64,000 nt of DNA from Enchytraeus crypticus (Eukaryota > Annelida > Clitellata > Enchytraeida > Enchytraeidae), in NCBI GenBank assembly GCA_905160935.1, contig CAJHZI010000441.1, positions 124,001 to 188,000 on the forward strand, read 5' to 3'. The translations under genes and the position numbers were made by a program. Of the stretch, positions 8,386-60,506 are shown one piece after another (positions within the stretch are counted from its first letter, which is position 1; every line of letters begins with the position of its first letter). The notes under the pieces were generated by a model. The model did not search any database, was not told where the DNA came from, and was given only the letters and a program-made list of their open reading frames with translations.

Positions 8386-8700
8386 GTATGTCTCTTAACT
8401 GTGATAAGGTATAGTATTCTATTTAACTGTATTTTAAGCATATCTCTATCTGTGCTGTATAGTAATCTATTTAATTGTATTCTAAGTCTAAACTGTCTCT
8501 AACTGTGATAAGTATACTTTTTAATAGTATTTTAAGCATATCTTTAACTATGATACGGTATAGTATTCTATTTAATTGTATTCTAAGTCTAACTCTCTCT
8601 ATTTCTCGTGCATTCTGTTGAATTGCATTCTAAGTCTAATTGTGATGTATAGTATTCTATTGAATTCTATTCTAAATCTAACCTGTCTCTCTATTTCTCG
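8386..8700 (+). repeat. Tandem repeat abutting the exon C acceptor
   Basis: Diverged units of about 60-90 bp carry TAGTATTCTATT and GTATTCTAAGTCTAA motifs. The last two units each contain a pyrimidine tract followed by ATTTCTCGTGCA. In the final unit this is the real acceptor (AG 8704-8705). In the copy 92 bp upstream (8591-8612) the AG is replaced by TT, so it is a dead duplicate of the splice site. Confidence 0.7.
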
Positions 8701-8705
8701 TGCAG

Positions 8706-8931
8706 ACTGCCCTACACCTAGCGGTCATGACGGACCAGCCTGGTGCCCTCGACACCCTGCTCGACTCCGGGTCTTCCCCTGCTCTCAGGGACTACCAGGG
8801 GGATCAGGCCTGTCACCTCGCCGTCAGGCACAACAGCCCTGCCTGCCTCAGGGTCCTGCTGGACCGCTGTCACCCCTCCGCCTCTCCCAGCCAGGCGTCC
8901 CACCTCGACCTCGAGGCAGTCAACTATGAAG
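8706..8931 (+). CDS. BCL3-like: Bcl-3-like I-kappa-B protein, exon C (ankyrin repeats 2-3)
   Basis: Acceptor AG 8704-8705, donor GTATTT at 8932. Phase 0 in, phase 1 out. It encodes TALHLAVMTDQPGALDTLL (repeat 2), then DQACHLAVRHNSPACLRVLLDRC (repeat 3), then a Ser/Pro insert and LDLEAVNYEG. The order SPACLRVLLD, insert, LDLEAVNYEG parallels SPTCLRALLD ... LDLEARNYDG of Bcl-3. The exon is clearly richer in G+C than its introns, which supports it being coding. Confidence 0.92.
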
Positions 8932-9359
8932 GTATTTTATTTCTTTTAATTTTTAGTGATTTCTTATTTATACAAATATTAACTAAATAAAAATAATTAA
9001 CTTAAATTCTAAAAATTTAAGTTAATAGTTAACGATCGATTAAATTAATCCGATCCCATTTTCCGATTTTTATTTTTTATTTTCGATCCCATTTTTTACA
9101 TTTTTAAATTCTTTATTAGCATCCATTGTATTTTTAATGGTTTGTTTATTTATTAAAATGTATTTATATTTCATTGTCCTACATTGAGCGATAGATATTT
9201 AACGCATATTGTTTGACAGTGACGATTTTGTCTGTGACAGTGTAAATCAACTTCTGTAACTGTAGTTTAATAAATGTTGAAAGAAACGTATGTGATAGTT
9301 ATTAAGGTGATATATTTGTCAAAAAAGGTCAATTTCAACTCTTACCTTTTTTAAACTAA

Positions 9360-9535
9360 TGTACAATTTTTATTGTATTATTAAAATCATAGTATTAGGT
9401 GTAATTAGAAATATTGTACTATTAAACTAAGTGTAAAATTTATTGTATTATTAGATTTATTTATTGAATTTACTCTATATATTGTACTATTAGATTTATT
9501 TATTTAATTTACTCTATTATTAAATTAGACAATGC
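9360..9535. repeat. AT-rich tandem repeat in intron
   Basis: Diverged units of about 50 bp with ATTGTATTATTA and ATTTATTTATT motifs lie just before the exon D acceptor. Low information; slippage or short tandem duplication is likely. Confidence 0.5.
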
Positions 9536-9549
9536 TTGTTTTTCTGCAG

Positions 9550-9836
9550 GTATGACACCGCTTCACCTGGCTGTACAACTGGGTCACTATGACCTCATTA
9601 GACTGCTGCTAAGGGGTGGGGCCGCTGTGGACACTAGGGACGCCATCAAGGGCCGCACTGCCCTGTTTCTAGCCCTTGAGCTCGAGGACCACAGGGCAGC
9701 TACGCTCCTCATGGAGCACGGGGCCGATCCCACTGTCCTTACCAAGAGCGGAAGCTCCCCAGTTAGACTGGCGTCGGAAAGGTATCGGGCGGATATCGAA
9801 GAGTCTGCTGGAAATAAGGTTGTGTTCGCGCAGTGA
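9550..9836 (+). CDS. BCL3-like: Bcl-3-like I-kappa-B protein, terminal exon D (ankyrin repeats 4-6)
   Basis: Acceptor TTTCTGCAG (AG 9548-9549); the exon completes a Gly codon and runs to a TGA at 9834-9836. It encodes GMTPLHLAVQLGHYDLIRLLL (repeat 4), KGRTALFLALELEDHRAATLL with HGADPTVL (repeat 5), and a shortened repeat 6 beginning KSGSSPVRLAS. The protein stops about 30 residues into repeat 6, so it lacks the seventh repeat and the long Pro/Ser tail of vertebrate Bcl-3. That could be lineage-specific or reflect an alternative terminal exon. No PEST tail is visible after the repeats. Confidence 0.92.
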
Positions 9837-12764: not shown

Positions 12765-12880
12765 TAATTAGTTAGACGTTCGCTGAATATATGAGACTAT
12801 CTCCTGACGTTAAACTTGGCGTTAGCTGTACATAATAATAATAATAATAATAATAATACAAATAATAACGATAATAATTA
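12720..12880. repeat. AAT microsatellites
   Basis: Two (AAT)n tracts at about 12720-12762 and 12831-12878 are separated by about 70 bp of unique sequence. They immediately precede a family A SINE. Confidence 0.8.
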
Positions 12881-12886
12881 ACAAAA

Positions 12887-13000
12887 GCTAGTGTTAATGT
12901 CAGTTTCCTCACTCGAAAGCAATGTCAGTGATGGGAGAGCCCAGGATTTGAACCCGGCACATAGGCCTACTGACCAGCGGTCGAATATGTTACCGCCGAT
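12887..13000 (-). mobile_element. tRNA-derived SINE, family A
   Basis: The minus strand carries the B box GGTTCAAATCCTGGGCTC and the distal core GAGTGAGGAAACTGACATTAA. The A-box side is decayed. It belongs to the same family as the better copies at 42.8 and 60.4 kb. Confidence 0.75.
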
Positions 13001-15991: not shown

Positions 15992-16133
15992 GACACTGGC
16001 TGGAGCCAGTGGCGATATCGGTAAGACATTCGACCGTGGATCAGTATGTGCAGGGTTCAAATCCTGGGCTTGCCCGTCACCGACATCGCTTTCGAGTGAG
16101 GAAACTGATGTTAACATTAGCTTTACCAGCTTT
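15992..16133 (+). mobile_element. tRNA-derived SINE, family A, near full length
   Basis: TGGCTGGAGCCAGTGGCGATATCGG carries the A box, GGTTCAAATCCTGGGCTTG the B box, and GAGTGAGGAAACTGATGTTAA the core; it ends in AGCTTTACCAGC. It sits exactly between two satellites with different units. Confidence 0.9.
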
Positions 16134-17130
16134 TAGTAATTAGTAATTAGTAGTAGTAGTAATTAGTAATTAGTAGTAGTGAGTAGTATAGTAATTAGTA
16201 ATTAGTAGTAGTAGTAAGTAGTATAGTAATTAGTAATTAGTAGTAGTAAGTAGTATAGTAATTAGTAATTAGTAGTAGTAGTGAGTAGTATAGTAATTAG
16301 TAATTAGTAGTAGTAGTGAGTAGTATAGTAATTAGTAATTAGTAGTAGTAGTGAGTAGTATAGTAATTAGTAATTAGTAGTAGTAGTAAGTAGTATAGTA
16401 ATTAGTAATTAGTAGTAGTAAGTAGTATAGTAATTAGTAATTAGTAGTAGTGAGTAGTATAGTAATTAGTAATTAGTAGTAGTAGTAAGTGGTATGGTAA
16501 TTAGTAATTAGTGGTAGTAAGTAGTATAGTAATTAGTAATTAGTAGTAGTAGTGAGTAGTATAGTAATTAGTAGTAGTAGTAAGTAGTATAGTAATTAGT
16601 AATTAGTGGTAGTAAGTAGTATAGTAATTAGTAATTAGTAGTAGTGAGTAGTATAGTAATTAGTAATTAGTAGTAGTAGTAAGTAGTATAGTAATTAGTA
16701 ATTAGTGGTAGTAAGTAGTATAGTAATTAGTAATTAGTGGTAGTAAGTGGTATAGTAATTAGTAATTAGTAGTAGTAGTGAGTAGTATAGTAATTAGTAA
16801 TTAGTAGTAGTAGTAGTAGTATAGTAATTAGTAATTAGTAGTAGTAGTAAGTAGTATAGTAATTAGTAATTAGTGGTAGTAAGTAGTATAGTAATTAGTA
16901 ATTAGTAGTAGTAGTATAGTAATTAATTAGTAAGTAGTAGTATAGTAGTATAGTAGTAGTATAGTAATAGTAGTAGTAGTAGTAGTAGTATAGTAATTAT
17001 TAGTAGTAGTAATTAGTAATTAGTAGTAGTAAGTAGTATAGTAATTAGTAGTAGTAGTAGTAGTAGTATAGTATTAGTAATATAGTAAGTTAGTGGTAGT
17101 AGTAGTAGTAGTAGTATAGTAGTAGTAGTA

Positions 17131-36430: not shown

Positions 36431-37372
36431 TGGAGACTGGGTAGGTTGTAACACGGGGATGGTTGTAACTTGCCAATATGTTCACTAAATAAAAGAGGAA
36501 TGCAAAAACTTATCTCCTGCTATTGTTCATTGTTTCATTATTCATAATCAAGCCTAATCTTAAAGCAATCGTTCAAACAGGTGAGGTGCTATTTCAATTT
36601 GTATGTTTTTTGCTATCAAAAGTAAATTTTTGCCATTTGATGTTTCATTTTGACTAGACGAGTCAGTTTAAGGTTTTAACAAGTAAGACTTTGGTGTAAG
36701 GTATACCGTGCTAATGTCTTTAGAAATATTTATTTTGAAGTTGACTAAGAAAACTCATTTTGGCTACGTAATCATTTTATACACTCACTCTATTCCGGTG
36801 CAGGTTGTAGCATTTGACGCAGGGAAGGTTGTAACGCAATTATATCTTGCCCTGTGCAAGTGAGGCTGCTTGATGCAGTAGTTTATTGTTATATAGTCCT
36901 ATACTACGTTATAGGCTCCTACTTGAATGCATAATCGTAAGTTAAGCCTGCATTTGATTACTAATTGTTAGTAAAATAATATACACTATAATTAATATAA
37001 TAATATATAAATAATAATAATAATAATTTATATATATAATATAAATAATATATAATTAAAATAACATGTAATTTATAAAGTAAAATAATATGTATGTAGG
37101 CTATGTAGCCTAGCTATGCCTATGATTTTTAGAATGAGGAATTCTAAGAGGAAATCTACGCGTTGTAGCGTTTCAAAGGATGTCATGGAAAGTGCAGTTG
37201 AAAGAGTGCTAGATAGTGGACAATCCTTTAGAGCCACTGCAGTAGAAATGGGAATCTGTTACGTTACTTTATTTCGTTACATCAAGCAAGTCAAAGCAAG
37301 GCGTGCAGCCGGGGATATTAACTCAACTGGCATAATTATTTTATTCATTATTTTTCTGTCTCCTATATTGTG
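36428..37372 (+). mobile_element. pogo/Tigger-like DNA transposon remnant, 5' part
   Basis: After the TA tract, GGTGGAGACTGGGTAGGTTG then TAACACGGGGATGGTTGTAA looks like a transposon terminus, and a related pair of GGTTGTAAC-type motifs recurs at 36806-36835. At 37134-37300 an open frame gives KRKSTRCSVSKDVMESAVER, then FRATAVEMGICYVTLFRYIK, a Psq-type helix-turn-helix as found at the N terminus of pogo-class transposases. The catalytic DDE domain is absent. I see no matching 3' terminus, so the copy is truncated. Confidence 0.65.
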
Positions 37373-41825: not shown

Positions 41826-42750
41826 TACTGAAATCTAAAGGGTCTCAAAATTTTACTAATTGCTGGTCTTGAACTACTTTCTTGCAAATGTGACCTGTTT
41901 GAATATCTATATATTTCATTAAAATTGTTTTGCTGGTAACTGGCGACCTTGCTGTCAATGATGAGTCTTAAGCCTATATAGAAGATTATATTTATAGATT
42001 CCTTCCAGATGATTCTTCGATCTATGTTGTTACATCTGTATAAACATGTCTGTATTGATCCATCAGACCTCTGCAATGAATATTACTATTTATTCATCTC
42101 TTTTGAACTATTTTGTTTATTTACCATTCATTTTTCTTTTAGGTTTTAGTATTTATTGTGTAAAGGTTGATAACTAGACCTGCAGGAGTGATAGATAATT
42201 GGTTGAGATAGGAGTGATAGAGGTTAGGTTAGGAACTGGTTCACGAGGTGCTTCAAGGTAATCTGTTAATAGCATCAGCTGATCAATGTTGTTATGTCTC
42301 TATAACTGTTTGCAGTATTCGTCACGCTAACATTATATAGTGTGATCAATCTAAACAACGCTGATGTTGATATGGTGTAGTTTTCTTATAGTATTTTATT
42401 CTAAAAAGTTCAATATTTACTATAATCTTCAGAGTACTGTAAGAGAGATGGTAGTGTGGGATTGTGTGTGTATTGTGTTGATTTCTACATTGTGTTATTG
42501 GAGGAAATATGGCAGTGTATTAGAACAAATTAATTTTTAGTTATGTAAATTAGTATCTAGCTAAGTTAATATAAAGTCTCTGCTTTCATCTTATAATTTA
42601 TTAAAGTGCTGTTTTATCAGTAACTTCATTTATCTACTGAAGAAAAATTTGAAACTTTATAAATTATGTAACATTTTTAAAAATTAGTATTAGTTATAAG
42701 TGAATAATTAAACTATAGTATATTTTCTTTTTTATTTAAAAGCTAAAGAA

Positions 42751-42883
42751 GCTGGTAAAGCTAAGATTAACGTCAGTTTCCTCACTCAAAAGCAATGTCA
42801 GTGACGTGCAAGCCCAGGATTTGAACCCGCATCTACTGATCCGCGGTCGAGTATCTTACTGACTTCGCTACTGGCTCCAGCCA
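42751..42883 (-). mobile_element. tRNA-derived SINE, family A, near full length
   Basis: On the minus strand GGAGCCAGTAGCGAAGTCAG (A box), GGGTTCAAATCCTGGGC (B box), then GAGGAAACTGACGTTAATC and AGCTTTACCAGC. This and 60370-60504 are the clearest copies. It lies about 320 bp upstream of the desaturase start. Confidence 0.9.
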
Positions 42884-43202: not shown

Positions 43203-43412
43203 ATGGTGTTCTCATTCTGCAGCGAAGTCGTGCTGTCTACCATACAGTTCTGTAAGTCCGTCGTGAGTGCAACGGCAATCTACTTCAACGAAGACCACGC
43301 ACCCCCCGCCAGCAAACTGAAGGGTGTTGGACTGAGCACCCCCCTCTCCGCTAATCTCCCGTCCATTATTGACGTCAAAAAAGCTCTGCCAAAACAATGC
43401 TTTCAGCCAAAG
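43203..43412 (+). CDS. Methyl-end (omega) fatty acid desaturase, exon 1
   Basis: Starts at ATG 43203, after an in-context CATC, and encodes the cytosolic N terminus: MVFSFCSEVV, YFNEDHAPPASKLK, LPSIIDVKKALPKQCFQPK. The sequence around IDVKKALPKQCF matches the usual (L)K(D/E)ALPxHCF region before the first membrane span. Donor GTACTG at 43413; phase 0. There is no cytochrome b5 domain, as expected of methyl-end desaturases, which use separate cytochrome b5 in the ER membrane. The family adds a double bond between an existing one and the methyl end (delta-12/omega-6 or omega-3 activity). Which of these this enzyme has cannot be read from sequence. Confidence 0.93.
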
Positions 43413-43849: not shown

Positions 43850-44021
43850 GTATCTACTTCGATGTACTATGCCATCAAGGATCTCGTGGTGATTGCCGTT
43901 GTCTTCGCGCTGTTCTACAGTCTCGACACTCTCGTGAAGGACTACAACTTCCTGAGAGCTGGAGTGCACGTCCTATACTGGGCCATACAGGGCACGCTCT
44001 TCACTGCCGTCTTTGTCATCG
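43850..44021 (+). CDS. Methyl-end fatty acid desaturase, exon 2
   Basis: Acceptor GTGCAG (AG 43848-43849), donor GTACGT at 44022. It encodes SMYYAIKDLVVIAVVFALFY (first membrane span), then AGVHVLYWAIQGTLFTAVFVI (second span). It ends one base into the Gly codon that opens the first histidine box, so that box is encoded entirely by exon 3. Confidence 0.93.
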
Positions 44022-44061
44022 GTACGTCGAAATGTAGTACATGATTAGACTGTTATCTGTC

Positions 44062-44125
44062 AGCAATGATTTAACATCCAGTTCCTTATCCGAGGATGAT
44101 GTTTGTAACGTCTTGCCAGTGATGT
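44062..44125 (-). repeat. Short dispersed repeat in desaturase intron 2
   Basis: TTTAACATCCAGTTCCTTAT, then GAGGATGATGTTTGTAACGTC resembles the reverse of the GACGTCCCTGACATCA repeat at 58.8 kb. It leads directly into the CRE-like array. Confidence 0.45.
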
Positions 44126-44245
44126 TGTGCTAGTGACATCATGCTAGTGACATCATGCCAATGACATCAAGATAGTATCGTCATAATTGTGACGTCATGC
44201 TTGGGACGTCATGCTAGTGACGTCACGCTAGCATGACGTCACTAA
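44105..44245. promoter_or_regulatory. CRE-like array (TGACGTCA) in desaturase intron 2
   Basis: About nine tandem copies of a 14-15 bp motif, TGACATCATGCTAG or TGACGTCATGCTAG. Three are perfect TGACGTCA palindromes (44190-44197, 44218-44225, 44234-44241), the consensus site of CREB/ATF bZIP factors. The end of the array forms a near-perfect palindrome of about 30 nt around 44216-44240. It may be an enhancer or simply a minisatellite; no expression evidence is available. Confidence 0.55.
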
Positions 44246-44414: not shown

Positions 44415-45198
44415 GGCATTGATTGATTGATTTCTCTTGCAGGTCATGACTGTGGTGACGGGTCTTTCACAGACTACTCTCTATTCGATTGATTGATTGA
44501 TTGATTACTCTTGCAGGACATGACTGCAGTCACCTATATTTCTCGGACTATTCTCTACTCGATTGATTGATTGATTTCTCTTGCAGGTCATGACTGCTGT
44601 AGACTACTCTCTACTCGATTGATTGATTGATTTCTCTTGCAGGACATGACTTCTGTAGACTACTCTCTACTCGATTGATTGATTGATTTCTCTTGCAGGT
44701 CATGACTTATCTAGACTATTCTCTACTCGATTGATTGATTGATCTCTCTTGCAGGTCATGACTTCTCTAGACTACTCTCTACTCGATTGATTGATTGATT
44801 TCTCTTGCAGGACATGACTGCTGTAGTCTATTCTCTACTCCATTGATTGATTGATTTCTCTTACATGTCATGACTTCTGTAGACTACTCTCTACTCGATT
44901 GATTGATTTATTTCTCTTACATGTCATGACTTCTGTAGACTACTTTCTACTCGATTGATTGATTTATTTCTCTTGCAGGACATGACTGTGGCCACAGATC
45001 TCGGACTAATCTCTACTCGATTGATTGATTTCTCTTGTAGGACATGACTCTATTGTTTGATTTATTTCTCTTGCAGGACACGACTGTGGTCACGGATCTT
45101 TCTCTGACTACTCTCTACATGATTGATTGATTGATTTCTCTTGCAGGATATGACTTCTGTAGACTACTCTCTACTCGATTGATTGATTTCTCTTGTAG
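44415..45198 (+). repeat. Tandem array of 3' splice site plus histidine-box coding start
   Basis: Fourteen copies of a unit made of GATTGATTGATTTCTCTTGCAG (or its variants) followed by a version of the first 40 bases of exon 3. AG ends lie at 44442, 44516, 44586, 44642, 44698, 44754, 44810, 44978, 45040, 45076, 45146 and 45198; two copies (44866, 44922) have AT instead. Seven consecutive spacings are exactly 56 bp; outer units are up to 74 bp and keep 14 more bases of the H-box coding. The last unit is the true acceptor. From each upstream AG the frame meets a stop, mostly in the GATTGA run. Confidence 0.95.
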
Positions 45199-45674
45199 GT
45201 CATGACTGTGGTCACGGGTCTTTCTCGGACTATTCTCTACTCAACGACACCGTGGGAACCATCATGCACGGCTTCATCCTCTGTCCCTACTACATGTGGA
45301 AGCTCACGCATCGTCATCATCACAAGTTTAACGCCAACTTCGACAAGGACGAAGTCTTCTTTCCCGTCAAAGAGTCAGAACCATGTGCCAAGAATAAGGT
45401 TCTGCCCGGGTTTGGTTTGGGCGTGGGTTGGTTCGGTTATCTGGCTAAGGGTTACAACCCTCGCCCGGTCTGTCACTACGACCCTAGAGAGGCGATGTTT
45501 GCCGGTCACCTGGTGGGATTTTCTTTCTCGATGGCAGCGCTGGGTGCGATGTCGTACGTGCTCTACAAGTTCTACCTGGCTTGTGGTCTGCTGGCGGTCG
45601 TGTCGTTCTACTTCATTCCTCTCTTCGTCTTCGCCTGCTACATGGTCGTCATCACCTTCCTGCATCATCATGAG
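45199..45674 (+). CDS. Methyl-end fatty acid desaturase, exon 3 (histidine boxes 1 and 2)
   Basis: Acceptor CTTGTAG (AG 45197-45198), donor GTGTGT at 45675, phase 0 out. It begins by completing the Gly of GHDCGHGSFSDYSLLND: histidine box 1 is HDCGH. Histidine box 2 is HRHHH in WKLTHRHHHKFNANFDKDE. Then follow a soluble loop ending KGYNPRPVCHYDPREA, two hydrophobic spans (MFAGHLVGFSFSMAALGAMS and LLAVVSFYFIPLFVFACYMV) and TFLHHHE at the exon end. The histidine boxes hold the di-iron centre. The upstream neighbour of the exon is the acceptor array. Confidence 0.95.
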
Positions 45675-45679
45675 GTGTG

Positions 45680-45812: not shown

Positions 45813-45964
45813 GTTATATAGATATATTAATTAAAGTGATTGTACATTAAATTTAGTTATTTCTCACTGCGATTAAGATTTTTAAAAGTATATAATAATT
45901 AAAATGGCCATGTGTTGAAATGAATTATCATTAAAGAGAAAGTCAATAAAGCTAAAACCTAAAA

Positions 45965-46092
45965 AAGCTAAGGTTAACGTCAGTTTCCTCGCTCGAAAGC
46001 TACGTCAGTGACGGGCGATCCCAGGATTTGTACCCCGCACATACTGATCCGCGGTCGACTATCTTACCAACTTAGCCTCTGGCTCCAGCCAG
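45965..46092 (-). mobile_element. tRNA-derived SINE, family A, in desaturase intron 3
   Basis: On the minus strand A-box side GGAGCCAGAGGCTAAGTTGG, B box region GGTACAAATCCTGGG (one change from consensus), core GAGGAAACTGACGTTAACC. AATAAAG flanks both sides (45951-45957 and 46095-46101), a likely target duplication. Confidence 0.85.
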
Positions 46093-46275
46093 AAATAAAG
46101 TATAATCCGCTATTTGTTATTTGTGAAATGAATTAACATTAAACAGAGAGTAGATAAAGTATAATCCGCTATTTGTTATTGCCATTTGTTATTGCCATTT
46201 GTTATTTTTTCTTTAAATGAATTAGCACTAAACAGAGAGTCGATAAAGTCTAATCCGCTGTTTTTTATGTGTTTG
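46093..46275 (+). repeat. Tandem duplication abutting the exon 4 acceptor
   Basis: ATAAAGTATAATCCGCTATT or its variant ATAAAGTCTAATCCGCTGTT occurs at about 46096, 46156 and 46243, with AACATTAAACAGAGAGT between. A further, older copy at 45930-45957 is cut off by the SINE. The last copy ends about 20 bases before the acceptor. Confidence 0.75.
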
Positions 46276-46281
46276 GCGCAG

Positions 46282-46587
46282 GTGAACATCCCGTGGTACG
46301 CCGACGGGCAGTGGGACTTTGTGCGTGGTCAGCTCTCTACCGTGGACCGGCACTACGGCATCGTCCACTCGCTCATCCACAATATCGGCACCCATCAGAT
46401 GCACCACATGTTCACCAAGATCCCGCACTACCGGCTCGAGGAGGCCACGGTCGCCTTCAGAGCGGCGTTCCCCGAGCTCGTGCGCAAGTGCGAGGAACCG
46501 ATAATGACGTCCTATGCCAGGATGTTCAAGAAGTACGAGGAGCAGTGTGTCATCAAGGACGACACGCAGATTCACTACTATCAGTAG
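46282..46587 (+). CDS. Methyl-end fatty acid desaturase, terminal exon 4 (histidine box 3)
   Basis: Acceptor GGCGCAG (AG 46280-46281); stop TAG 46585-46587. It encodes VNIPWYADGQWDFVRGQLST, then VHSLIHNIGTHQMHHMFTKI with histidine box 3 HQMHH, then PHYRLEEATVAFRAAFPELV. It ends in DDTQIHYYQ with no dilysine ER-retrieval tail. Total coding length from four exons is 1164 bp, 387 residues, normal for the family. All joins are in phase and all eight catalytic histidines of the boxes are kept, so the gene looks functional. Confidence 0.95.
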   Translation: MNIPWYADGQWDFVRGQLSTVDRHYGIVHSLIHNIGTHQMHHMFTKIPHYRLEEATVAFRAAFPELVRKCEEPIMTSYARMFKKYEEQCVIKDDTQIHYYQ

Positions 46588-55575: not shown

Positions 55576-55636
55576 GTGTACTCTCAGTATTATTTGAACT
55601 CCATATGCCTGAGACCCCACGTCAGCGTCACTTGAA

Positions 55637-58261
55637 ATGAGTGCGATAAATGCACTAATGATCGAGACAGTAAATAGCGATACAAAGTCCCTCATGCAAC
55701 AACAAGAGATTAGAGGTAAAGAAGAGTCTGAAGAACAAACGTCTGACTCTAAGCCGAACTATTCCCGTGCTCTGACAAACGATCCTGTGTGTGGTTTGCC
55801 AGAAGAGTTTTATTCTTCTATTAAAGAAATAGAAAATAATGGTGTTTTATACAATCCATTGCCGAAAGAATCTCTGGTAGAAACTTGTCAGTGCTGTTGT
55901 AAGCTTAGACTAAGTACAAAATCAGAATTCGAAATTTGCAGATCAAATACAGAAAATCCTCATTTCAGTTTGACCTCTGACCTCGTGAAGCTCCAGATGG
56001 ATAAATCAGGAAAGGATTCATCAGAAGCTATCCATACAACTTGTGCAAATTATTCTCCGCCTGCGAACATGACCAAGAACACCTCTGCCACAAAACCGGA
56101 TCAGTTTGAAAACAGTCTCCAGTTAGATGGAAGAAATTCATCGATGGAACATACTTACACTCCGGCAGAACTGGAACCTCTGCCACCTAGTGATAATGGG
56201 ACTCTGGAAGAAGTTTCAGAGGAAAGGCTGAGGATGATGTACGAGAGATCGGTAGCTGAGAGGTTACAAGAAGAACTTGATGCCAGAGTAGAGATGAGAC
56301 GGCACGTCGAGATACTGACCATGTGCTCAAAATTTAGTCTTAACTTAGACAGTCCAGCGTTGAGCCAGAGACAGATTAAAGAAAATAAACCGCTAGGAGA
56401 AAGAGAATCAAGTGACTCGATTCAAAATGCCACAAATCCTTACGAGGCAAATATAGGCGAACAACCGGAAATAGAAACAAGTGACCCTGTGCAAAACACT
56501 CGCAAAATGGAGAAGACTAATTCTATATCTCTCTCTTCAGTGGTTAGACATTCAACTGATTGCTTTGATCAAACCTTATCAGTTGATGTTAGCGACGAGT
56601 GGATTCCACTCAAAGATGACAACTTGATTTCCTCTGAGAGGACACAACTGTCTAATCAGAAATCAGCTTCATATGATAACCGTGCCAAACTCGAAGGCTT
56701 CCAGAGCCTTCTCAAAAGAGTCCATACACCCGGATCACGTCCGGCAGAGGATAGGACTGATCCTGGCTACATGTTGAGATCGAGATCTACTGAAGAGATA
56801 TATGGGAGAAACTATCAGCATGATTCTCTTCCTGCCTCAGTTGATCCCAGGACTAAATGCTTAGATGATAGATTAATAATTCGTAGTTTAACAATTATAT
56901 GTGGAAATGAAGAGGAAAGCGGAAGACAGAGAAGAGTGGGGGCGTTATATACCATGGACCTGCCAGTAGGCAATGCACTAAGAGATAAAGAGAGTTTAAA
57001 AATCTTGCCCGGAGGTCACAGTGTCGAACCTCGCTGCGAGTGTCTCAATGAATGGACTAATAACTGTGATTTGCTTGAAGATTTCGGTGCTTCTCAGCCA
57101 GATTCTGATGAAAGTCGTAAAACGACAGGTTCTAAACAACTTTGCAACAGCAACAAAGCAACAGATTCTGAGCAACTTAACAGCAAAAAATTAACAGATT
57201 ATGAGAAACTAAGCAACAATAACAAAACAATAGATTATGAGCAACTTAACAGCAACAAAGCAACAGATTATGAGCAACTGATCAACAGCTGCGAAACAAC
57301 AACTTCCGTGCAAATTAACAATTTCAAGAAAGAAACAAATTCCGGGTTAATTAGTCTCAGCTACAACGCAATCGGTTCTGTGAAGATTAACAACAGCTAT
57401 AGGACAACAGATTTAGGACAACCGGACAACAACAACTACGACAGTAAGGATTATAGCTGCTCTCGTGGTTTGCTCGAGGTAACTGAACGATCTGACAGTG
57501 CTCAACAATCTGTTGCTACAGTTTCATCAGATAATTCTGATTTAGACCTTCGCGTCTTCTCAACTCTTCCCGATAATTTCTTAGAGTTCCGTCGCGACAT
57601 GGATTCCACTTCCAGATCTCCTAATCCAAGCGAAATCGACGATTCCGCAAAGATTTCCGGTTTAGATATTCAGCCTGTGAGTTTAGGTGGGAAATCTTCA
57701 TGTAATTTAGAATCAGTGCATGAAAGTGGCTACTCAAGTACGGAGAGTTCAACCAGGTTCAGTCACCTTAAGTCCATAAGAGCTCGCTCGGCTGTGGCTC
57801 GGTTCTGTTCACCCCTCTATAGCGAGACTGACGAAAACGACGACGAAGTGTTTGTTGCTATGCCAGATGATGCGATAAATCTTTATAGCTGTGATAATTT
57901 GCTGAGCGTCACCAATAATCGCAATGAAGTGAAGAAAAGAAAGAAGGATTTCGATGACGACGAAGTATTTGTATCAGATGAACTTTCAAAGGTTCGTCAG
58001 AACAACGGCTTAGAGGAAGGGCAAGGTAAGAAGGTGGCATCAGATAGCATGAAGAGAGACGAAAGCAACGGAAAACTGCCAGATTTAGTGTCACTCACAG
58101 TTCGTTCATCGAGCCTCCAAGCCTGCACGAAAGCAATGCGACCTATAACATTAGAGTGCAGACAACAACAACAACAAAATCGTAAATTTAAACCATTGCC
58201 TCTAGCTACCGACCTCCAGCTTTCAACTTCCGGCATCAGGCAGAAAGCGCTAACCTACGAG
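55637..58261 (+). CDS. Unrecognised large protein, exon 1 (875 codons)
   Basis: Open from ATG 55637 to a consensus GTAAGA donor at 58262, phase 0. The previous in-frame stop is at 55610; an AG at 55623-55624 leaves room for an upstream exon. The protein is polar and Ser/Asn/Glu-rich, mostly likely disordered. Visible parts: a Cys cluster ETCQCCCKLRLS (about residues 80-91); a charged helix SEERLRMMYERSVAERLQEE ... MRRHVEILTMCS (about 195-235); nine degenerate repeats of 11-13 residues with TDYEQLNSNKA consensus (about 494-600); and two acidic DDEVFV motifs (about 735 and 775). Residues about 409-453 derive from a LINE 3' end. I do not recognise the family; a cytoskeletal scaffold is only a guess. 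Confidence 0.8.
56861..56995 (+). mobile_element. LINE 3' end incorporated in a coding exon
   Basis: From TTAGATGAT through TATGTGGAAATGAAGAGGAA, GAAGACAGAGAAGAGTGG and CCATGGACCTGCCAGTAGGC to a degenerate AGAGATAAAGAGAG tail, the sequence matches the (GA)n-tailed LINE end at 49318-49448 (reverse strand); over the best 84 bases I count 8 mismatches. The host frame here reads ICGNEEESGRQRRVGALYTM, whereas the LINE frame would read VEMKRKAEDREEWGRYIPW and stop. The insert therefore contributes coding sequence in a foreign frame. Confidence 0.85.
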
Positions 58262-59018
58262 GTAAGAACGAGTTTACTTTATAATATTTTGCATTGTTTA
58301 TGTGATTTAGAGACTACAGTCTCTGAATTAACCTCTTTCTGTTAAATGATCAATACGTTTGCAAACTAGCGTAAACTTTAGGAATAATTGTAGTGATTGA
58401 TTGTTTGATAGCTTGAACCATTGAGCACTAGACGACCTTCTAACTACCACTAACAGTCAACGAGCAGTGAATTTGTTACAATTACTAGTATTTAAGTCCA
58501 AACATAAGCAAAGCTTAGAGGCTCATGATTGAAGAATACCTTGAACATAAATAAACTACAGGTGCTGGGGAGACTTTGGTATTTACACAAAGATGTTTTT
58601 GTATCTACAATTGGTTCGTGCTTGAATTATTTCACTTTAAAGCAATCAATACTGGCGTAAATTAATGAGTCAATTAATTCTGGGGTAACTTAATTAGTCA
58701 ATCAATGCTGGCTTAATTCCGATATAACTTATTAGTTAATCAATAGTGGTTTAGTGTTATTGTATTCGCTTTGCAATTGTCGATCATCAATGATGCTTAG
58801 AATTAACAATTGAGAAGACTAAGACAAAAATTGTTGCGGGGACGTCCCTGACATCATCCTTGGATGAGGAAACGGTCGTTAAACCTTTATTATCATTATT
58901 ACTATTAAAATAAATTCAAATATAATATGTAAAAATTCTTAAAGGAATATCGAAACAGTCAGATATTAATACCCATAGACAACGCAACAATGCTACTTTC
59001 TATTAATTTATTCTTCAG
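58262..59018 (+). other. Intron 1 of the third gene
   Basis: From the GTAAGA donor to the acceptor TTATTCTTCAG. It holds a dispersed repeat copy at 58833-58895 (GGGGACGTCCCTGACATCAT, GGATGAGGAAACGGTCGTTA). Nothing else is seen. Confidence 0.7.
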
Positions 59019-60370: not shown

Positions 60371-60506
60371 CTGGTAAAGCTAATGTTAGCGTCAGTTTCC
60401 TCACTCGAAAGCGATGTCAGTGACTGGCGAGCCCAGGATTTGAACCCCGCACATACTGATCCACGGTCGAGTATCTTACCGACTTCGCTACTGGCTCCAG
60501 CCAGTT

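Follow-up and report, generated by a model that had tools for sequence, protein, structure and literature searches.

A desaturase gene in a repeat-rich window

The forward (+) strand of the window (the whole 64-kb stretch of DNA analysed) carries a gene of four coding exons, with GT/AG introns throughout and a product of 387 amino acids, all of whose codons are open. The coding part of exon 1 (43203..43412) is an open frame that ends at the donor gtactg and is covered by relatives aligning full-length. Exon 2 (43850..44021) lies between the acceptor tgtgcag and the donor GTACGT at 44022, and its final G belongs to the Gly codon that precedes the first His box. Exon 3 (45199..45674, 476 nt), as seen from its translation and a Pfam match, contains the first two His boxes, and the translation of exon 4 (46282..46587) contains the last His box and the stop codon.

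The 387-amino-acid product matched FA_desaturase (PF00487, E 2.7e-24), and its translation contains the His-rich motifs HDCGH, HRHHH and HQMHH. With this domain, three His boxes and full-length similarity to relatives, the gene is, judging by its sequence, a methyl-end fatty acid desaturase of the family of annelid methyl-end (omega-x) desaturases; the preliminary description had likewise placed the array in intron 2 of a desaturase. Among the best 120 of 315 matches, the highest was to a jgi protein (77% identity over 83% of the query), and the first named organisms were annelids, among them Capitella teleta and Paralvinella palmiformis (57% each) and Hediste diversicolor, with 53% identity to its omega-x desaturase 1; the window thus probably comes from an annelid or a near relative of annelids. 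No relative of P0001 was confirmed in viral contigs. According to an extract of PMC11286186, methyl-end desaturases are found in several animal phyla and permit synthesis of polyunsaturated fatty acids. The junction of exons 2 and 3 aligns without a gap to relatives (P0001, for example, reads FVIGHDCGHGSFSD), and this gap-free crossing of the boundary by P0001 supports 44021/45199 as the functional junction.

The window contains 67 tandem-repeat loci (13,188 bases); the 26 of them that have three or more copies and a period of 10 or longer account for 9,908 bases of the 64 kb. Because the window is so rich in tandem repeats, an array that spans a splice junction is not surprising in it. Between 23267 and 31095 minisatellites with periods of 14-182 succeed one another densely for about 8 kb. 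A 910-codon open frame at 55613-58345, which has no Pfam match, includes the repetitive stretch NNNKTIDYEQLNSNKATDYEQL; since this stretch coincides with the tandem repeat at 57119-57320, coding sequence seems to contain a minisatellite there. Another gene is represented by stretches that code for ankyrin repeats (Pfam Ank) at 8682-8987 and 9468-9833, and at 37089-37370 a transposase helix-turn-helix (PF01527) matched weakly, with an E of 0.00064 that falls short of the Pfam cut-off. A SINE-like element that includes what reads as a tRNA-like stretch is dispersed in the window, with 12 matches, the query included, at 76-100% identity (45940-46095, 42739-42883, 60376-60504, 15996-16136, 12864-12994 and others); one copy lies within the third intron of the desaturase gene, another upstream of that gene. 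Searches of the window with ARAGORN and Rfam gave neither a tRNA nor an RNA family.

Anatomy of the array

Intron 2 of the desaturase gene ends in a minisatellite at 44417..45198 (+ strand; TRF, motif search and alignment), made up of the intronic part of copy 14 and, upstream of it, 13 copies of the intron–exon junction, of which 11 have AG. Its units run head to tail and fall within the size range of minisatellite units, about 10-100 bp. All 14 copies of the 3′ splice site with the start of exon 3 that had been described earlier were located, and the array was picked up independently by TRF (period 56 bp, 11.9 copies, score 741, with overlapping 74-bp and 98-bp rows), which puts it far beyond chance. 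The earlier bounds of the array were 44415..45198, but copy 14 belongs to it too and takes the last unit to about 45242.

A typical unit consists of a (GATT)n run, the pyrimidine tract TTTCTCTTG, CAG or TAG, and an exon-3-like start ending in CTCTACTC, any one of which may deviate in individual copies; each copy includes the first 10-44 nt of exon 3. The exon-like starts are at 44443, 44517, 44587, 44643, 44699, 44755 and 44811 (copies 1-7) and at 44867, 44923, 44979, 45041, 45077, 45147 and 45199 (copies 8-14). In array order the start-to-start spacings are 74, 70, 56 (seven times), 62, 36, 70 and 52 bp, a range of 36-74 bp, and the units are mostly of a short (56 bp) or a long (70-74 bp) type. 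The statement that the unit encodes GHDCGHGSFSDYS stands for copies 12 and 14, but copies 1 and 2 have amino acid replacements and most units are not full-length.

The AG is kept in 12 of the 14 copies, ten of which read TTGCAG; the other two, the functional copy 14 and copy 11, read TTGTAG. The preliminary description had likewise counted 12, with many copies reading TTGCAG and the true site TTGTAG. Its remark that upstream copies begin with GT or GA and complete the Gly codon is borne out over all 14 copies, seven of which start with GT and seven with GA, giving Gly either way after the terminal G of exon 2. At E 0.01, the only match to the unit elsewhere in the 64-kb window was one of 16 bases (21577-21562), and searches for the exact unit motif returned 0 hits in viral contigs and 0 in prokaryote genome contigs.

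A tandem-repeat scan revealed a second, unrelated array in the same intron (44108..44241, + strand), with a 14-bp unit in about nine copies. It holds GACGTCA four times and TGACGTCA, the CRE/ATF consensus, three times.

Divergence of the copies

To align the units, MAFFT output was adjusted by hand: the tails of copies 10 and 13 were put back in their own units, the surplus GATT in copy 1 and the six terminal bases of copy 14 were removed, and the four leading columns were gapped in copies 11 and 14, whose GATT run is one unit shorter. In this alignment, 14 bp of the exon part, in the HDCGHGS region, are missing from 8 of the 13 upstream copies (3-9 and 13), copy 11 retains only about 10 bp of that part, and copy 10 has a 4-base deletion, so that only copies 1, 2, 12 and 14 are free of gaps. 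Copy 1 (44417..44486, + strand), the first unit, with its AG just before 44443, has a full-length exon-like part with amino acid replacements. Copies 8 and 9 (44841..44952, + strand) are adjacent and, as found by motif search and alignment, have both lost the AG, each reading TTACAT. Copy 14 (45177..45198, + strand) contains the functional acceptor TTGTAG, which, from the translation and the gap-free junction in relatives, alone gives the full protein.

The copies differ pairwise by 13% on average (range 2% to 27%). Long tandem arrays are easily misassembled, and some pairs of copies are close enough (2-5%) to leave room for local error; since the copies are mostly distinct, however, false expansion of one unit is unlikely, and we regard it as highly unlikely that copy number or order is in part an artefact of assembly. 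Neighbouring copies were not clearly more alike than others (Mantel r 0.09, p 0.23), and the simplest history, slippage between neighbours, is thus not demonstrated by the array.

Copy 11 (45019..45050, + strand; exon part of about 10 nt) is the sole upstream copy that reads TTGTAG and has a shortened GATT run like the functional site. As copies 11 and 14 alone share these two features, the functional acceptor itself probably took part in exchange with the array.

Copy 12 differs from functional exon 3 in a different manner. Its exon-like part (45077..45117, + strand) has, in the alignment, five differences from exon 3 over 14 codons, the split Gly codon counted, and all five are synonymous; the other gap-free upstream copies, 1 and 2, contain amino acid replacements. 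The chance of five out of five synonymous changes is 0.0014 with one neutral branch and 0.014 if half the time is allowed on a coding branch, both values being uncorrected, for a copy picked after viewing the three gap-free upstream copies, and for a test that drops codon 15, which has two replacement differences where the copy meets the GATT run that follows. Some of the variants (the GGA start, TAC) recur in other copies, so the five are not all independent. The pattern suggests that copy 12 may derive from a coding version of exon 3, which could for example be a former exon start or belong to a paralogue or a different allele. A bolder reading is that the array looks as if it were a fossil record of exon 3, in which copy 12 would once have been a working coding version or would have been taken from one.

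Consequences of splicing to the upstream copies

Splicing of exon 2 to any of the 11 upstream copies with AG completes the Gly codon and then meets an in-frame stop, giving products of 133-146 amino acids; only copy 14, with its exon start at 45199, can encode the intact enzyme. The stop lies in the following GATT run for 9 of the 11, in keeping with the earlier claim of a stop after each upstream acceptor, mostly in that run. For copy 11 it lies in a degenerate run at 45058, and for copy 13 inside exon 3 at 45203. Because its period is four, the GATT run stops all three frames.

As a control, we followed the reading frame from every AG in the gene's three introns, and for 93 of the 94 it met a stop before the next exon was finished. 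The fractions were 17 of 18 for intron 1, 33 of 33 for intron 3 and, within intron 2, 22 of 22 for the array region and 21 of 21 for the remainder. Outside the array region, 71 of 72 AGs reached a stop. As nearly any intronic AG has this effect, we rejected the idea that the stops in the array evolved as poison elements.

We also searched the array region for donors that could delimit small cassette exons. Among its 24 GT dinucleotides, the best match to the donor consensus was at 6 of 9 positions; the five sites that reach this value, four CAGGTCATG and CTTGTAGGT at 45195, are all located at acceptors, so no separate good donor was found in the array. The three real donors of the gene match at 6, 6 and 7 positions. 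It could be imagined that copies starting with GT act as zero-length exons, the intron being removed stepwise by recursive splicing, as seven of the 14 copies start with GT and CAGGTCATG, at 6 of 9, equals two of the three real donors. The junction regenerated by such a step, TCGGTCATG, however, matches at only 4 of 9 positions against the 6, 6 and 7 of the real donors, and the reaction is impossible for the seven copies that start with GA. We find this explanation barely credible.

Variation at the splice signals

Variability was measured as the minority-base rate among the 13 upstream copies in 55 of the 70 alignment columns, the 15 columns around the deletion being excluded. The exon-like parts are, as a group, without coding constraint, since most copies have lost at least 14 bp there. 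The AG, which is indispensable to a used acceptor, is only average in variability (0.077, equal to the overall rate of 0.077 for the 55 columns). Within the unit, variability is lowest in the pyrimidine tract (0.022) and next lowest in the GATT run (0.037); the rate was 0.068 for the first nine exon bases, 0.096 for GCAG and 0.129 for the distal exon part. The 11-column acceptor block as a whole (0.049) was not unusually low (permutation p = 0.20), and 20 of the 35 contiguous 11-column windows, the block included, were as conserved or more so. Among the copies, then, the alternative sites are not conserved beyond their surroundings, although the tract alone is low, and we rejected selection in the form of extra acceptor conservation for the AG and for the whole block. 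Low variability of the tract and of the GATT run is also what use of the sites would predict.

The preliminary description had offered, as one of two possibilities, a splice-controlled dosage switch, in which the choice between 45199 and the upstream acceptors, followed by decay of the stop-bearing messages, would set the level of the desaturase. Retention of the AG, the tract and the branch-like motifs in 11 of the 13 upstream copies agrees with such a switch, as do the truncated product expected from each of these 11 acceptors (133-146 amino acids) and the position of the tract as the least variable segment. Against it, neither the AG columns nor the whole block show excess conservation, truncation is expected from almost any intronic AG, and two acceptors have been lost. 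No feature of regulated use was seen, the proposal gains no support from these analyses, the low tract aside, and we judge it improbable. An extension of it, in which the number and quality of intact decoys would set the share of transcripts that escape decay, so that array length would tune polyunsaturated fatty acid synthesis like a rheostat, appears to us improbable to the same degree.

Choice of the acceptor at 45199

We looked for a cue that could single out copy 14. Each exon-like start is preceded by branch-like adenines (yUnAy) at distances of 13, 17 and, in most copies, 21 nt; copy 14 has those at 13 and 17. No consistent advantage specific to copy 14 was found in sequence or predicted structure.

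The RNA of the array contains self-complementary GAUU runs (A-U and G-U pairs) and the palindrome GUCAUGAC, and pairing between units through these elements might hide the decoys and leave the last acceptor free. The predicted fold was more stable than those of all 20 dinucleotide shuffles (20/20, z = -3.76). Shuffling, however, destroys the periodicity through which any palindromic repeat pairs, and extra predicted structure is as expected for repeated palindromes. In the whole-region ensemble, the unpaired value of the copy 14 acceptor was narrowly the highest of the 12 AG copies (0.66, against 0.64 for copy 3), and in 450-base windows it was second (0.63, against 0.65 for copy 3). In 120- and 250-base windows, by contrast, copy 14 was ordinary (0.46 and 0.42), with several decoys more open, and its branch region was among the more paired (0.18 in the whole-region ensemble and 0.20 in 450-base windows). 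Masking of the decoys by RNA structure was rejected for want of a stable difference in accessibility, and we consider it most unlikely that inter-unit pairing determines the choice.

As neither the sequence nor the folding of the array gives a clear cue for copy 14, we infer that the choice is driven by exon 3, which, through its donor at 45675 (7 of 9 to the consensus) and exonic signals, would recruit the nearest acceptor.

A further possibility is that the decoys take a constant, unregulated share of the transcripts, the gene being weakened, in this allele or species, to an extent that is tolerated through paralogues or diet. A CAG acceptor is generally stronger than a TAG, and the functional site has TAG while ten upstream sites have CAG; moreover, splicing to the first decoy would shorten the intron from 1177 nt to 421 nt. 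The coding sequence, on the other hand, is open across 387 codons. We think such a load rather unlikely, yet it is easier to accept than the other alternatives, and, being an effect and not an origin, it can coexist with the explanation that we prefer.

Origin of the array

We consider it highly probable that the array is a minisatellite, neutral or at most mildly costly, that arose by tandem duplication of the intron–exon junction, the exon-proximal acceptor being the one used. Our verdict on its function draws on the variation among copies and on precedent. The other possibility raised in the preliminary description, a harmless minisatellite born from an exon-intron junction, agrees with this, and it fits the variation among copies, the generic stops and the repeat-rich window.

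Under the minisatellite explanation, a segment that starts with the TTGAT run of intron 2, includes the acceptor and extends to about codon 15 of exon 3 would have been duplicated in tandem, and slippage or unequal exchange would have expanded it to the 14 units of the minisatellite. The long (about 70 bp) and short (56 bp) units could afterwards have arisen by deletions and point changes, with the last unit alone carrying the coding exon. Exon 2 would ordinarily be joined to 45199, because that acceptor adjoins exon 3, which would be defined by its donor and exonic signals. The upstream acceptors would be ignored or little used, the resulting early-stop messages would be degraded, and the array itself would have no selected role.

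The two AG losses sit in adjacent copies with identical TTACAT, which speaks for the neutral explanation. Against it, 11 of the 13 upstream copies are still apparently competent acceptors, branch-like sites included. Much leaky splicing should have let selection damage the decoys; their survival implies either a strict choice of 45199 by some cue or a real tolerance of loss. The gene downstream of the array is intact. The array shows a route by which a minisatellite can grow into coding sequence and leave the gene unbroken. Should splicing to the upstream copies occur, the length of the array would offer a genetic dial for an enzyme involved in polyunsaturated fatty acid synthesis.

Comparison with known duplicated splice sites

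The array had initially been thought to have no described equivalent; human CBS 844ins68 and the IFI6 minisatellite, however, are close equivalents in kind. The duplicated sites of CBS are, reportedly, 3′ splice sites (by the title of Romano 2002), and G runs are said to silence 3′ splice sites in that gene (by the title of Romano 2010), whereas the worm stretch 44415-45198 has a single GGG. Like the worm array, whose unit joins the end of the intron, with its 3′ splice site, to the beginning of exon 3, 844ins68 (c.844_845ins68) repeats in tandem an intron end, a 3′ splice site and the first exon bases. An extract of PMC7490669 describes the duplication as 52 intron and 16 exon bases carrying the 3′ splice site; an extract of PMC2630376, which terms the duplicated sites donor sites, has the more distal of the two strongly favoured and the chromosome non-pathogenic. 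This preference for the distal site supports a choice driven by exon 3 in the worm gene. The human duplication is a polymorphism with one extra copy, whereas the worm array has 13 extra copies, which are diverged and carry internal deletions.

The minisatellite of human IFI6 (6-16, G1P3) sits at an exon–intron junction. By the title of Turri et al. 1995, it has multiple splice donor sites. Two downstream repeat units act as splice donors and three mRNA species arise, according to an extract of PMC4526556. Repeat units thus supply multiple splice sites in both cases, but those of IFI6 are on the donor side and alternative sites are reported to be used, whereas those of the worm array are on the acceptor side, where putative alternative use would truncate the protein. 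The 31-bp VNTR of CBS, which has consequences for splicing, is also on the donor side, unlike the worm array. Its coordinates, c.1444_1467+7, span the exon–intron boundary in an extract of PMC2630376. A published minisatellite that lies upstream of a gene, at the transcription start, was set aside as not equivalent to an acceptor array.

In the literature searched, which covered few subscription papers and so is weak evidence of absence, no multi-copy acceptor array was found; the kind to which the array belongs, duplicated splice junctions and splice-site minisatellites, is already known, and its multi-copy acceptor form may be what sets it apart. If RNA confirms near-exclusive use of 45199, the gene would provide a natural competition test, with eleven near-identical acceptors upstream in one transcript and a functional site that, with TAG in place of the stronger CAG, is not the strongest by sequence. 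It would set exon definition against choice of the first AG or of the shortest intron, a severer test than the two-copy human case.
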